From positions 763,413-827,412 of the forward strand of contig NZ_AP014510.1 in NCBI RefSeq assembly GCF_000828675.1: a DNA stretch of 64,000 nucleotides, given 5' to 3'. The translations under genes and the position numbers were made by a program. Below the pieces are notes generated by a model, which saw nothing but the letters and a program-made list of their open reading frames with translations, did not search any database and was not told the origin of the DNA. Origin of the DNA: Thermotoga profunda AZM34c06. GTDB taxonomy: Bacteria; Thermotogota; Thermotogae; Thermotogales; DSM-5069. Of the stretch, positions 37,248 to 59,040 are shown piece by piece (position 1 is the stretch's first letter; every line of letters begins with the position of its first letter).

Positions 37248-37333
37248 TGGTGCCGAGGGCGGGACTTGAACCCGCACGGGAGTAACCCACATGATCCTGA
37301 GTCATGCGCGTCTGCCATTTCCGCCACCTCGGC
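37248..37333 (-). tRNA. tRNA-Leu (anticodon CAG)
   Basis: A class II tRNA of 86 nt with encoded CCA. The acceptor stem is GCCGAGG/CCTCGGC with discriminator A73. The anticodon arm is CATGA-CTCAGGA-TCATG with CAG, reading CTG. The variable arm (GGGTTACTCCC) and the T arm (GCGGG-TTCAAGT-CCCGC) are normal. The accessory island starts right upstream of its 5' end. Confidence 0.96.
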
Positions 37334-37348
37334 AACTTTTCGTCCTTT

Positions 37349-37377
37349 ATGATACCACAAGGCTGGGTTTTAATCAA
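37349..37377 (-). promoter_or_regulatory. Promoter of tRNA-Leu
   Basis: On the minus strand TTGATT (37372-37377) and TATCAT (37349-37354) have a 17-base spacer and lie 15 bases ahead of the tRNA 5' end. Confidence 0.65.
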
Positions 37378-37395: not shown

Positions 37396-37468
37396 TCCGA
37401 AAAATATCCATGACATAATAAAATGGGATGAAACTGCGAAAAAGCTACCAATAGGGATAAACGATTAC
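37396..37468 (+). pseudogene. Truncated leader and first codons of an AAA-ATPase/PD-(D/E)XK gene
   Basis: This stretch aligns base for base with the leader and first codons of the full gene at 38792 (compare 38750-38824). Reading on gives KKLPIGINDY and then a stop inside the following repeat. The start codon has changed from GTG to GCG. Homology breaks exactly where the 36-bp repeat begins. Confidence 0.8.
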
Positions 37469-37504
37469 TGTCACAGTTTGTAGACAACTATCACATAAGT
37501 CACA
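37469..37504 (+). repeat. 36-bp repeat, left copy, made of TGTCACA-type units
   Basis: It matches 38713-38748 at 33 of 36 positions. Inside, units of 9-10 bases recur: TGTCACAGT, TGTAGACAAC, TATCACAT and AGTCACAAT. The spacing of about one DNA turn suggests an iteron-like binding site for a protein. A TATAAT lies 11 bases downstream (37516), before the ATPase gene. Confidence 0.85.
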
Positions 37505-37537
37505 ATCTACAATGTTATAATTATACCTGGTGGTCAA

Positions 37538-38701
37538 ATGAAAAAAGATGATATAAAAAATATTCTGAAAGCACTTTTTGATGAACCCCTCTCCTCTAAG
37601 GATCTACTTGTTGACAGAGAAAAAGAAATAGATTCCCTCAATATGGTGTGTTCATTCCAACCGGCGGGAATTTATGGTGTGTGCGGCGAAACGGGTGTCG
37701 GAAAAACAACTGTGTTGAATTTCATTAAGCCCGATGAAGGAGAAAGGATTTATCTGAAGCTCACAGAAAAGCAGAGCAAAGAGATAATAATTGCCGATAT
37801 GCTTTACAAACTCGCTGCGGAAGTGAAGAAAAGCAAAGCCACAGAGCTTTTGAAAATTGCAAAGCAAGCGATTGATTTCGTTGTCGAAGAAAGAAGTGAA
37901 ACCAGTTCTCTTGGAGCAGCTGGAGGGGTTTTTGTAACAGGGAATCTTTCTAAGAGTACGACTCGCACAAAGAAATTCAATATTTATCAAGCTTATGAAT
38001 TGTTTGATAAACTCCTTGAGGCTCTATTGAGAAAATACAATAAAGTTGTTCTGCTCATAGATGAACTCGATAAAGAAAAGAAAGAAGAAGTGCTTGTAAT
38101 TCTCGATTCGCTCAAAGCTGTTTTTGGTAAAAACGGATTAGTGGTAATACTTTCTTTGCCATTTGCAATATACAGGGAATATGTGAGAGACAGATTGAGA
38201 TGGAACGAATCTGGAAATTTAGAGAATATATTGAAAGATACATTTTTTATAGAGCCACTTGATGATGAACAAATACAGCAAATGATCTCAAAAAGGTTGA
38301 TAGCTTATCCAGACTATTTCGACGGCGATGCCCTTTATGAAATAGCGAGATACAGTGATGGGAACCCGAGAGATGCCCTTTGGATTTCTCAACAGATCGT
38401 TCAGAGTAATCTCGATAACGAAAGAATAACAGGACAAATAGCAAGAGAAACTATTAAAAAGATAGTCAAAAGATATTTTGGAAGTTCCTGGGAATTAACA
38501 GACCTTCAGAAAAAAGTGCTTCGTATTGTGGCAGATCATCAGGGGAGCAGGAATAACATAGTAAAAGAGCTTGAGAAAAGAAATGTAAAAAGGCAAACTG
38601 CCTATACTTATATAAACCGTCTAAAGGAAGACGGATTGATAATTGAAAGAGATGAAAAATTAATGGTTTCTGGAAAGATCTTCTATTTGATCTCATCCTG
38701 A
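37538..38701 (+). CDS. Orc1/Cdc6-like AAA+ ATPase with winged-helix C-terminus
   Basis: The 387-residue protein has Walker A GETGVGKTT near residue 52 and Walker B VVLLIDELDK near residue 170. The lid domain contains EPLDDEQIQQMISKRL and GNPRDALWISQQIV near residue 285, which resembles the sensor 2 region of Orc1/Cdc6 and related initiator or STAND ATPases. The last 80 residues (ELTDLQKKVLRIVADH to LKEDGLII) form a winged helix for DNA binding. The flanking iteron-like repeats are obvious candidate targets. It could be a replication, recombination or defence ATPase; there is no partner gene that decides. The ATG follows GGTGG. Confidence 0.75.
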   Translation: MKKDDIKNILKALFDEPLSSKDLLVDREKEIDSLNMVCSFQPAGIYGVCGETGVGKTTVLNFIKPDEGERIYLKLTEKQSKEIIIADMLYKLAAEVKKSKATELLKIAKQAIDFVVEERSETSSLGAAGGVFVTGNLSKSTTRTKKFNIYQAYELFDKLLEALLRKYNKVVLLIDELDKEKKEEVLVILDSLKAVFGKNGLVVILSLPFAIYREYVRDRLRWNESGNLENILKDTFFIEPLDDEQIQQMISKRLIAYPDYFDGDALYEIARYSDGNPRDALWISQQIVQSNLDNERITGQIARETIKKIVKRYFGSSWELTDLQKKVLRIVADHQGSRNNIVKELEKRNVKRQTAYTYINRLKEDGLIIERDEKLMVSGKIFYLISS

Positions 38702-38703
38702 TC

Positions 38704-38748
38704 TGTCACAACTGTCACAGTTTGTAGACAGCTGTCACACAAGTCACA
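38704..38748 (+). repeat. 36-bp repeat, right copy, with one extra TGTCACA unit
   Basis: The copy proper is 38713-38748; an additional TGTCACA unit stands at 38704-38710. It lies between the ATPase stop and the leader of the first nuclease gene. Together with the left copy it brackets the ATPase gene. Confidence 0.85.
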
Positions 38749-38791
38749 TCTCTGAAAAAGTGCCCATGGCATAATAAAATGGGGTGAAACT

Positions 38792-40384
38792 GTGAAGAAA
38801 TTACCGATAGGTATAAACGACTACAAACAGATCATAGAGGGTAATTACATATACGTAGACAAGACAAGATACCTGCATGAAATGGCAACTACGGGGATAT
38901 ATTATTTTCTCTCACGACCAAGGAGATTTGGGAAGAGTTTAACGGTCAGCACATTTTATTATCTATTCACAGGAGAAAAAGAACTGTTCAAAGACACATG
39001 GATATACAACAACTGGGATTGGGAGAAAGAGAGATATCCTGTTGTTGTATTGGACATGAACAGATTAAACACGAGTGATATAGGGAGTATGAGGAAAAGG
39101 CTTGAGATGATTTTAGAAGAACATGCTGAAATATATGGCATAGTACTTCAGGATGACACCATAGATGGGAAATTCGAACAGTTGATAAAAAAGGCACATG
39201 AGAAGGTTAAAAAGCCTGTAGTTTTACTGATAGACGAATATGAGAAGCCGATATTAGATCACATAACAAACAAGGCAAAGATAGAAGAGATGAGGAATGA
39301 ACTAAGGCAATTTTATGGGAAGATAAAGAGTCTTGGTAGTTCACTGAGATTTGTATTTATAACAGGCATAACCAAATTCACAAAGATGGGTGTATTCAGT
39401 GCGTTGAATAATCTCACAGATATCACTTTCAGTGAATTTTATTCGCAGATGCTTGGATATACACAACAAGAAATAGAACATTATTTCAGTGAACACATAA
39501 CAAAAGTGAGCAGAGAAATGAAAATGACAGAAAAAGAATACCTTGGAACCTTGAAAAGCTATTATGATGGTTTTTCTTTTGATGGCCTTCATCATGTATA
39601 CAATCCCTATGCTGTATTACTTGCGTTGTACAACAAAAAATTTGCTTCATACTGGAACGAATCTGGAGCTCCACAGTTCATTTTCGAATATTTCAAAACT
39701 CACAAAGTTACAAGAGATGATCTGGTAGGGAAAATAGTTCCTGAAAGTGATTTTACTGACAAAGAAATAGAAGATACATCACCTGTTATCTTTCTAACTC
39801 AAGCGGGATATTTAACACTAACAAAGAGAGTATCACCAGATCCCAAGCAAGGACCGATGTACATACTGGGTATACCCAATATAGATGTAGAGGCAGGGTT
39901 AGATAAAGTATTGTTAGAAGCGAGATATGGCATGGATACAAGTGAAATAAACCAAAAGATATACATAATACGTGAATCAATGGCAAAAGAAGACGTAGAG
40001 CAATTGATGGGGGCGATACAATCAGCATTAGCAGAGATAAGTTATGATGTTATTGAAAGGATAAAACGATCAGGGAAAGAAGATAAAATAACCCAGCTTG
40101 AATCATTTTACCAGACATATATAAAGACCTTACTTGGTGTCGCTGGGTACAAAGTGATAGAAGAACAGATAGCGAATACGGGAAGGGCAGACTTAGTGGT
40201 GAAAACCAACGGTACAGTGTACATATTCGAATTAAAAATAGACCAACCTGCGAGCAAAGCGATAGAACAGATAAAGCAAAAAAGATATTATGAATCATAC
40301 AGATACAAAAGATGTTATTTGGTGGGTATAAGTATCTCAAGTGAAGAAAGAAATATAAAAGAATGGAAATATGAAAAAGTCTGA
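38792..40384 (+). CDS. AAA-ATPase-like / PD-(D/E)XK nuclease family protein (copy 1)
   Basis: The 530-residue protein has the two-domain layout of the AAA-ATPase_like (PF09820) and PDDEXK_9 (PF08011) families. The N-terminal ATPase part starts KLPIGINDYKQIIEGNYIYVDKT and has RPRRFGKSLTVST as the P-loop equivalent and VVLLIDEYEKPI as Walker B. The C-terminal nuclease core is GRADLVVKTNGTVYIFELKID with an ELK active-site motif. The cellular role is unknown; such genes are often multicopy in anaerobes and have been suspected of mobility or defence roles. The GTG start has GGGGTG upstream. Long stretches are identical in DNA to the copy at 40960. Confidence 0.88.
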   Translation: MKKLPIGINDYKQIIEGNYIYVDKTRYLHEMATTGIYYFLSRPRRFGKSLTVSTFYYLFTGEKELFKDTWIYNNWDWEKERYPVVVLDMNRLNTSDIGSMRKRLEMILEEHAEIYGIVLQDDTIDGKFEQLIKKAHEKVKKPVVLLIDEYEKPILDHITNKAKIEEMRNELRQFYGKIKSLGSSLRFVFITGITKFTKMGVFSALNNLTDITFSEFYSQMLGYTQQEIEHYFSEHITKVSREMKMTEKEYLGTLKSYYDGFSFDGLHHVYNPYAVLLALYNKKFASYWNESGAPQFIFEYFKTHKVTRDDLVGKIVPESDFTDKEIEDTSPVIFLTQAGYLTLTKRVSPDPKQGPMYILGIPNIDVEAGLDKVLLEARYGMDTSEINQKIYIIRESMAKEDVEQLMGAIQSALAEISYDVIERIKRSGKEDKITQLESFYQTYIKTLLGVAGYKVIEEQIANTGRADLVVKTNGTVYIFELKIDQPASKAIEQIKQKRYYESYRYKRCYLVGISISSEERNIKEWKYEKV

Positions 40385-40447: not shown

Positions 40448-40666
40448 ATGAAACTCAAAGAGATGATTTTCATAGTGGAGGAAGATCCAGAGGGTGGATA
40501 TAACGCCAGAGCTTTAGATTATAGTATTTTTACCGAAGCAGACACCTTAGAAACGCTCAAAGAGAACATAAAAGACGCTATAAATTGCCATTTTGATAAA
40601 ATTGATGACAGACCAGATATTATTCGACTCCACATTGTAAGAGAAGAAACATTTACATATGGCTAA
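40448..40666 (+). CDS. hicB: HicB-like antitoxin
   Basis: The 72-residue protein has the HicB N-terminal fold: FIVEEDPEGGYNARALDY, then TEADTLETLKENIKDAINCHF. There is no separate DNA-binding domain at the C-terminus, so autoregulation is uncertain. It overlaps the hicA gene by eight bases, in the antitoxin-first order. Confidence 0.85.
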   Translation: MKLKEMIFIVEEDPEGGYNARALDYSIFTEADTLETLKENIKDAINCHFDKIDDRPDIIRLHIVREETFTYG

Positions 40667-40910
40667 ACTTCCACGAAACCTTTCAGGTAGAGAGCTTGCC
40701 AAATTACTCAATGGGTATGGTTATGAGATAACAAGAAAGAGCGGCAGTCATCTGAGATTGTCCTCAAATATTATGGGTTATGAACATAGAATCACCATTC
40801 CAGATCATTCTTATCTCAAAATAGGTACCTTAAATAACATATTAAAAGACATAGCAGAATATCTGAAAATCTCCAAAGAGCGTTTGATAAATGAACTTTT
40901 TAGCAAATGA
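40659..40910 (+). CDS. hicA: HicA-like mRNA interferase toxin
   Basis: HicA toxins cut mRNA through a double-stranded RNA-binding-like fold with a catalytic histidine. LSGRELAKLLNGYGYEITRKSGSHLRL carries the GSH motif near residue 30, and ITIPDHSYLKIGTLNNILKDI completes the fold. The 83 residues are usual. It lies between two near-identical nuclease-like genes, so loss of the flanked segment by recombination would be counter-selected by the toxin-antitoxin pair. Confidence 0.87.
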   Translation: MAKLPRNLSGRELAKLLNGYGYEITRKSGSHLRLSSNIMGYEHRITIPDHSYLKIGTLNNILKDIAEYLKISKERLINELFSK

Positions 40911-40959: not shown

Positions 40960-42540
40960 GTGAAAAAGCTACCGATAGGTATAAACGACTACAAACAGAT
41001 CATAGAGGGTAATTACATATACGTAGACAAGACAAGATACCTGCATGAAATGGCAACTACGGGGATATATTATTTTCTCTCACGACCAAGGAGATTTGGG
41101 AAGAGTTTAACGGTCAGCACATTTTATTATCTATTCACAGGAGAAAAAGAACTGTTCAAAGACACATGGATATACAACAACTGGGATTGGGAGAAAGAGA
41201 GATATCCTGTTGTTGTATTGGACATGAACAAAATAGACAGTACAGATCTTGAGACATTGAGAGAGAGTATTCAGATGATGTTATTAGATTATTCCAAGGA
41301 GTACGGTATAGAATTTCAGACCAAAACGGTATCGAACAGGATACAGGAATTGATAAAAAACATTCACTTAAAGACATCAAAGCCTGTAGTTTTACTGATA
41401 GACGAATATGAGAAGCCGATATTGGATCACATAACAAACAAGGCAAAGATAGAGGAGATGAGGAATGAACTAAGGCAATTTTATGGGAAGATAAAGAGTC
41501 TTGGCAGTTCGCTGAGATTTGTATTCATAACAGGCATAACCAAATTCACAAAGATGGGTGTATTCAGTGCGTTGAATAACTTAGAAGATATCTCCTACTA
41601 TGAAAAATTTTCACAAATGTTTGGATATACACAAGAAGAGATTGAAAAATATTTTCATGATTACACAGACAATTACCTTAGAAAAAATCACATGACAAAA
41701 GAAGAATTTTTCGAACGACTTGAAAACTACTACAATGGTTTTTCCTTCGATGGCAAACACAAAGTATACAATCCATTTGCAGTATTGCTATTTTACAAGA
41801 GTGGAGAATTTGCAGAGTATTGGCATGAGAGTGGTGCACCACAATTTCTGTATGACTATTTCATAAACAAGAAGGTAGATTTAAACGAGATACTAAAAGA
41901 CGGTGAAGTAGAGAAGAGTGAATTATCCAAGAGAGAAATAGAAGAGACGACACCGAAAGTTTTCTTGATACAATCTGGGTATTTGACCTTTGAACAGATT
42001 ATAGAACAAGGCAGGTACAAAATAGATTTTCCCAATATAGATGTGAAAAAATCGATAGGTAGCATGTTATTAGAGATAAATTACCAGATAAGTGATGAAA
42101 AAAAGAGGCAGATATCGGCACAGATAGAAAAGGCGATAAAGGAAGAAGATATAGACAGATTGATTGAAGTATTTAAAACAGTGATATCAGGGATGAGCTA
42201 CAGGATAACAGGTGAGATAGAAAGGCATGTGAAAGAAGAGAGAGTGAAGAACTTAGAGATGTATTATCAATCACTGGTATATTGTATACTTGCTGCATCT
42301 GGGTACAATGTAGAGACAGAAGTAGAGACTGGTGGTGGGAGGATAGACATAATACTCAAGACCGATGGTACGGTATACATATTCGAATTAAAAATAGATC
42401 AACCTGCGAGCAAAGCGATAGAACAGATAAGGCAAAAAAGATATCATGAATCATACAAATACAAAAGATGTTATCTGGTGGGTATAAGTATCTCAAGTGA
42501 AGAAAGGAATATAAAAGAGTGGAAATATGAAAAAGTTTAA
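40960..42540 (+). CDS. AAA-ATPase-like / PD-(D/E)XK nuclease family protein (copy 2)
   Basis: The 526-residue paralogue has the same layout: KLPIGINDYKQIIEGNYIYVDKT, RPRRFGKSLTVST, VVLLIDEYEKPI, and nuclease core GRIDIILKTDGTVYIFELKID. DNA identity with copy 1 is complete or nearly so at about 40970-41228, again around 41383-41580 and at the 3' end (about 42365-42535). Between these blocks the proteins diverge strongly. The GTG start follows GGAGGAGG. The mosaic suggests gene conversion of parts while substrate-facing segments vary. Confidence 0.88.
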   Translation: MKKLPIGINDYKQIIEGNYIYVDKTRYLHEMATTGIYYFLSRPRRFGKSLTVSTFYYLFTGEKELFKDTWIYNNWDWEKERYPVVVLDMNKIDSTDLETLRESIQMMLLDYSKEYGIEFQTKTVSNRIQELIKNIHLKTSKPVVLLIDEYEKPILDHITNKAKIEEMRNELRQFYGKIKSLGSSLRFVFITGITKFTKMGVFSALNNLEDISYYEKFSQMFGYTQEEIEKYFHDYTDNYLRKNHMTKEEFFERLENYYNGFSFDGKHKVYNPFAVLLFYKSGEFAEYWHESGAPQFLYDYFINKKVDLNEILKDGEVEKSELSKREIEETTPKVFLIQSGYLTFEQIIEQGRYKIDFPNIDVKKSIGSMLLEINYQISDEKKRQISAQIEKAIKEEDIDRLIEVFKTVISGMSYRITGEIERHVKEERVKNLEMYYQSLVYCILAASGYNVETEVETGGGRIDIILKTDGTVYIFELKIDQPASKAIEQIRQKRYHESYKYKRCYLVGISISSEERNIKEWKYEKV

Positions 42541-58974: not shown

Positions 58975-59040
58975 GGTTATCTGTTGTCGAGCCTGTACGG
59001 TGTTTGTCGAGCTTGTCGACGGTGACAAGATGAAGATTTT

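Follow-up and report, generated by a model that had tools for sequence, protein, structure and literature searches.

What is a gene for an Orc1/Cdc6-like AAA+ ATPase doing between two iteron-like repeats in the chromosome of Thermotoga profunda AZM34c06? The locus lies in a stretch of 64,000 nucleotides (contig NZ_AP014510.1, positions 763,413 to 827,412; hereafter the window, from whose first letter its positions are counted). An original prediction, made from the letters of this stretch, had placed there a winged-helix ATPase flanked by two repeats and preceded by a truncated start of the neighbouring nuclease gene, next to a tRNA-Leu gene, and had proposed a tandem unit or an element carrying its own sites. 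We found the observation to be real and general in Thermotogota. The explanation that we favour, with a probability of roughly 0.55, is a mobile single-gene Orc1/Cdc6-type module whose own binding-site repeats are the places of exchange within variable islands rich in defence genes. The confidences of the readings weighed below need not sum to 1, because the rivals are not fully exclusive of an exchange module. The features that make up the module are the following.

37460..37504, plus strand: left (5') class-B repeat, with units 2-5 (37467-37504) intact and foreign sequence in place of unit 1 (37460-37468).
37538..38701, plus strand: gene for the Orc1/Cdc6-like AAA+ ATPase (387 amino acids) with Walker A/B motifs and a C-terminal winged helix; the predicted recognition helix is residues 352-364.
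38704..38748, plus strand: right (3') class-B repeat, complete, with five units starting at 1/10/21/30/39.

When read against its relatives, the full repeat is 45 bp long and consists of five units starting at 1, 10, 21, 30 and 39 (spacing 9-11-9-9 bp); it exists in two classes, A (TGTCGA) and B (TGTCACA). The two copies announced for the window are present and direct: 37467-37504 and 38711-38748 are identical at 35 of 38 positions (33/36 in the earlier count), and the right copy does have the fifth unit described for it, the left copy being the damaged one. The exact repeat 20-mer occurs twice in the window (expected from shuffles: 0), and two copies without mismatch are all that the 2.19-Mb genome holds, which rules out a genome-wide dispersed repeat.

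The arrangement recurs across the phylum. A sample of 103 Thermotogota genomes from 38 genera (genomes and loci are cited by G and L numbers) was searched with a profile built from eight homologues, and the ATPase gene was found in 36 genomes and 15 genera. By our own count, the repeat stands on both sides of 33 of the 38 intact copies, which indicates a fixed architecture. The five copies without a full pair are those of G063 (left repeat only), G071 (left repeat and a stub of the right one), G005 (weak left repeat), G013 (none) and G069, where a left repeat is present and the next repeat is met 6 kb further on, after polysaccharide genes. The window genome also encodes a 40%-identical paralogue of class A, whose two direct repeats differ from those of the window ATPase. 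The same genomes were scanned with a sequence model for each class; 44 contained class A and 21 class B, and many of these repeats were solo. Repeats thus also occur without the gene, an outcome which the original prediction had named as a refutation. The islands in which these ATPase-less repeats are found are of the same kind, their orientation is the same, and they mark exchange junctions; therefore the model was changed and not refuted, and such single repeats appear in the genome comparisons as leftovers where the ATPase is missing.

Repeat and protein vary together. In a maximum-likelihood tree the class-B proteins form one clade (support 98/93) apart from class A, and no shuffle of the class labels did as well. 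The predicted recognition helix, placed from the helices of an AlphaFold model, reads K[RK]QTxYTY in 13/13 class-B rows and R[TS]T[AS]YS in 22/22 class-A rows. It is mainly because repeat class and recognition helix change together that we infer binding of the repeat by the ATPase, and the two repeat classes with their two helix sequences make up a ready test of specificity.

The two repeats of one element also resemble each other more than they resemble those of neighbouring elements: 31 variable columns are element-specific as against 2 that are side-specific, and the mean left/right identity is 0.933 compared with 0.880 in permutations, none of 5000 being as high. This points to concerted evolution, in which the pair would have been repeatedly homogenised or renewed. 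Neighbouring repeats no more than 25 kb apart have the same orientation in 18 of 18 cases. Orientation set by the direction of replication was considered as well; two repeats of G085, which are 59 kb apart and oppositely oriented, speak against it.

Comparison of related genomes shows where they differ in the module and in other genes (abortive-infection, AriA/HEC-type, nuclease, toxin-antitoxin, polysaccharide and type III genes of clustered regularly interspaced short palindromic repeats, CRISPR): the junctions are the repeats. In three pairs of near-elements (L098/L099, L069/L074 and L090/L091) homology begins and ends at the repeats and the flanks differ. The suggested comparison with an empty site could be made in G003, whose orthologous intergenic region has neither the gene nor the repeats, the flanks being 73-78% identical. 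Between G077 and G081 a nearly identical flank extends through the last base of the repeat and is followed by the ATPase in the former and by AbiL/TOPRIM-type cargo in the latter. Homology likewise resumes at the repeat where G049 has ATPase, repeat and a trpG-like gene and G052 has nuclease, repeat and the trpG-like gene; at this locus, which we take to be of Marinitoga type, the replacing nuclease belongs to the same family (AAA-ATPase_like/PDDEXK_9) as that of the window. At a third locus with common neighbours, repeat-ATPase-repeat of G049 and G051 corresponds in G052 and G055 to two repeats with a toxin-antitoxin pair, a major facilitator superfamily (MFS) gene and another gene between them. 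Finally, arrays of three or four direct repeats, with ATPase and defence modules in varying order, occur in G081 and in G039 and G040 (both presumably Mesotoga-like). Same-orientation sites that separate exchangeable modules, as in an integron array, are hence seen in the orientation of all 18 neighbour pairs and in exchange at three loci. The class-A copy of G001 falls inside the Thermotoga clade of the tree, which we read as a cross-genus transfer; its DNA match to the Thermotoga copy stops at the end of the right repeat.

The cargo between repeats includes AbiL-, AriA/AriB-, HEC-01- and PDC-type proteins, CRISPR type III genes and polysaccharide genes. In total, 49 cargo proteins match 89 PADLOC families as against 15 for 49 control proteins (E 1e-15), a rough measure only, since the families overlap and the controls, taken more than 4 kb away, belong to the same islands. 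The ATPase itself was not assigned by any PADLOC defence model, its weak matches being to the C-terminal DNA-binding region (best E 4.3e-6, 24.6 bits, window protein).

Some further observations concern the islands. Three genomes have a class-A repeat next to type III CRISPR (Cmr-type) genes: G000:C1:850323 (L177 7324-7368), G001 (L186 6371-6415) and contig C67 of G101 (L205), where an ATPase fragment still adjoins it. In the window, a solo class-A repeat comes right behind a glycosyltransferase gene (start MKILVIGYMHPKNDKRVF), and repeats in G069 (L196) and G083 (L201) have the same type of glycosyltransferase in their vicinity, which gives the impression that exchange there extends to surface-polysaccharide genes. 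In a presumably Mesotoga-like genome, several similar short genes (start ..ENLQIWKLGV.LAKD.YLLTE) are repeated beside a repeat-delimited array (L174 2859-4505). A second repeat array (TTCGATAAA / CGTACGAATTTATCGA type) adjoins divergent AAA_14-type ATPase genes beside a class-A element; it lies ~230 to 120 bases before the gene in L076, in the same place in L077-L080, L078 and L082, and also near 832900 in G000:C1, which suggests that other ATPases of the islands carry their own repeated sites too. In G007 (L020/L104, L024/L105) the ATPase gene is split by an IS200/IS605-type element, and its halves lie ~54 kb apart on opposite strands, each with its own outer repeat.

How might such a module work? 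We propose that the ATPase would bind the 45-bp repeat through its winged helix, with about one unit per helical turn, and that the 5' repeat, which would overlap the ATPase promoter, could provide autoregulation too. The direct repeats would then recombine, probably by homologous recombination and perhaps with the help of bound ATPase; in this way the intervening DNA would be inserted, swapped and deleted, and left and right copies would stay alike. Any active part of the ATPase in exchange belongs to this proposal. A bolder version, which we put forward as a tentative possibility, is a system of cassette exchange in bacteria that would rely on an Orc1/Cdc6-type ATPase and not on a site-specific recombinase; the ATPase would pair or process its own 45-bp direct sites, moving itself and swapping defence and surface-polysaccharide modules across Thermotogota.

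Several points weigh against the exchange module. Direct repeats of 45 bp can recombine by general homologous recombination unaided, and binding, excision and transposition are proposed from the comparison of genomes. Some solo repeats, among them one in G039 whose outer flanks are those of the full element, look like simple deletions of the ATPase between its own repeats, for which no cassette system is needed. Repeats persist in genomes without any ATPase (G066, G055, G052 and G068), the G003 empty site is too diverged for an exact target-site duplication to be read, and the window's own left junction is damaged. Some of this would fit passive repeats, with the ATPase a defence-type gene common in islands, a duplicated upstream site giving accidental homology and general recombination doing the rest. 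AAA_14, ATPase_2 and AAA_21 genes are indeed common as cargo beside the ATPase, the persistence of repeats without it agrees with this, and in two elements (G086, 79 bp; G010, 78 bp) the duplicated segment extends towards the promoter, as if copied from the left end. However, passive repeats leave unexplained why nearly every homologue in 15 genera has kept two full copies, and why repeat class changes with the recognition helix. We regard this account as doubtful, if the least improbable of the rivals.

The position of the repeats before genes raises the question of regulation. The ATPase could be a DNA-binding regulator whose left repeat is its own operator and whose right repeat is that of the next gene, here the nuclease. 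The left repeat ends ~11 bp before a TATAAT box and the right one ~20 bp before the CATAAT of the nuclease leader; the order of repeat and nuclease is kept in G000 and G001, and a solo repeat precedes a Cmr-type gene by ~110 bp in G000 and by ~90 bp in G001. Yet a terminator or a convergent gene often comes after the right repeat, cargo genes point in either direction relative to the repeats, and an operator predicts neither exchange junctions, nor a fixed relative orientation, nor concerted pairs. Such a regulatory pair seems quite unlikely.

Does the protein itself tell what the module is? The AlphaFold model of the window ATPase (predicted local distance difference test score, pLDDT, 86; predicted template modelling score, pTM, 0.81) has an AAA+ domain followed by a winged helix with the overall Orc1/Cdc6 fold. 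Its best fold matches, over residues 2-387, are archaeal Cdc6/Orc1 proteins (2qby_A, Z 18.2; 2v1u, 17.2; 1fnn, 17.1; 1w5t, 16.9), followed by the archaeal ATPase 2qen (Z 16.5), by 2fna (Z 15.1) and then by STAND proteins and TnsC (~14). The model thus supports the predicted Orc1/Cdc6-like winged-helix ATPase; the fold does not single out Orc1/Cdc6, because matches within ~1-2 Z include 2qen. In sequence, the match to the Orc1/Cdc6 family TIGR02928 reaches 15.7 bits against a curated cut-off of 181.3, the best Pfam match is KAP_NTPase (46.7 bits), and no close solved relative was found, the matches being to MetN, Nse1 and a designed protein at E 0.003-0.01.

The same matches, to archaeal proteins that bind origin boxes, would suit an origin-like module, that is, a true Orc1/Cdc6-type initiator with repeats as origin boxes, left behind by plasmid-like replicons that became integrated, with recombination between their shared boxes bringing cargo in and taking it out. 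One initiator gene beside repeated clade-specific boxes parallels the orc/cdc6-adjacent origins of haloarchaea (PMC3528665), and direct repeats, arrays and cargo would all be accounted for. On the other hand, a search for a plasmid, phage or viral home gave no relative among viral contigs, 50,697 phage records or 72,556 plasmids; the ATPase is not accompanied by a relaxase, helicase or primase, and the fold is shared at lower Z by STAND ATPases and TnsC. We consider this explanation unlikely. Outside Thermotogota, a scan of genome contigs with two strict peptide patterns, which distant relatives could escape, gave no relative.

Returning to the window, the surroundings of the module can be laid out as follows.

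37248..37333, minus strand: tRNA-Leu(CAG), no attachment site; the flank to which it belongs is conserved to ~37360 and shared with three sister genomes.
37400..37468, plus strand: what remains of the leader and first codons of a nuclease gene, the GTG now reading GCG; outside the module, at the junction with the damaged left repeat.
38792..40384, plus strand: AAA-ATPase_like/PDDEXK_9 nuclease gene, which comes straight after the right repeat, as it does in G001.
40448-40666, plus strand: small open reading frame (ORF) preceding the HicA gene, in the position of a HicB antitoxin, without a Pfam match.
40659-40910, plus strand: HicA toxin gene (Pfam match 7.9e-12) between the two nuclease genes; conserved in G001.
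40960..42540, plus strand: second AAA-ATPase_like/PDDEXK_9 nuclease gene.
58985..59029, plus strand: solo class-A repeat (TGTCGA type) without ATPase, in the same orientation, adjoining the glycosyltransferase gene.

The truncated nuclease start with its altered start codon was confirmed (37400-37468 against 38756-38824, 83% match). The flank mutL-MFS-wecG-tRNA-Leu is conserved in G001, G002 and G003 to about window position 37360, beyond which other genes follow. The block repeat-ATPase-repeat-nuclease-HicA occurs, 93% identical, elsewhere in G001 with a different left flank, and therefore the module does not include the nuclease-start fragment. Left of the 95%-identical element in this sister genome no such fragment is present, and a duplicated gene start as part of the unit was rejected for G000/G001; the originally proposed element keeps its own repeats and loses this component. 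The window fragment looks like a leftover from a further nuclease copy, at a junction whose rearrangement also removed unit 1 of the left repeat. Nuclease N-terminal fragments recur at such borders in G001 and probably in G049 (a nuclease-leader-like remnant left of the left repeat), and remnants of this kind may be recurrent at junctions. The two nucleases of the window agree completely in roughly their first 90 residues and again near the C-terminus, with differing sequence in the middle; such a mosaic suggests gene conversion or domain swapping.

The tRNA-Leu gene, correctly placed beside the locus and only 204 bp from the start of the ATPase gene, had been taken for a possible integration point, and one might think of an ordinary integrase island or transposon inserted behind it. 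This was contradicted: the tRNA has the element on its 5' side, no segment of the tRNA is repeated at a far border, the ORFs beside the element include no integrase or transposase, and other copies are not at tRNA genes. Nor are the ends those of a DDE transposon or insertion sequence, being direct repeats and not terminal inverted repeats with a transposase. Such an origin is very improbable. The module consists of one gene, the ATPase, and encodes no recombinase, be it transposase, integrase or relaxase; no integron integrase was among the best 25 Pfam families listed for the 49 cargo proteins, and none was recognised in ORF maps of the repeat loci, whose ORFs were not searched one by one.

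The mobile single-gene module favoured here looks like an undescribed one: we found no description in the open-access literature of a bacterial Orc1/Cdc6-like ATPase with bracketing, co-evolving direct arrays that delimit exchangeable defence modules. Mobile modules are usually detected via their recombinase, and as this one has none, it would be missed by searches of that kind. The 45-bp array offers a simple marker of points of cutting and rejoining in defence islands of thermophilic bacteria, and the Orc1/Cdc6-like fold would be linked to gene mobility in bacteria.

Several known systems share part of these features. Integron gene cassettes have recurring same-orientation sites between modules, exchange among related genomes and a wealth of defence genes; however, the Thermotogota sites are five-unit iteron-like arrays instead of attC hairpins, there is no integron integrase, and the ATPase is the only recurrent gene. 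Islands of the staphylococcal cassette chromosome (SCC) type are likewise composite and divided by direct repeats of one attachment sequence, whereas the Thermotogota module lacks a serine or tyrosine recombinase and occupies many chromosomal locations. TnsC/MuB-type regulators of transposition are AAA+ proteins that act with DNA-end binding sites and align with the ATPase at Z ~14, but here a partner transposase is missing and the repeats are direct, not inverted. The archaeal ATPase_2 family (PF01637) and STAND/KAP NTPases are related by Pfam domain matches and by 2qen and 2fna, although the sequence match is weak. Archaeal origins adjacent to orc/cdc6 differ in that the Thermotogota module is bacterial, that two intact direct 45-bp arrays bracket its gene, and that the arrays also stand alone and delimit other genes, the likeness being one of architecture and fold. 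In both, an Orc1/Cdc6-type protein with AAA+ domain and winged helix stands beside repeated boxes; in haloarchaea, where a gene is joined to its origin recognition boxes, protein groups and box types diversify together, and some origins arrived with new genomic content (PMC3528665).

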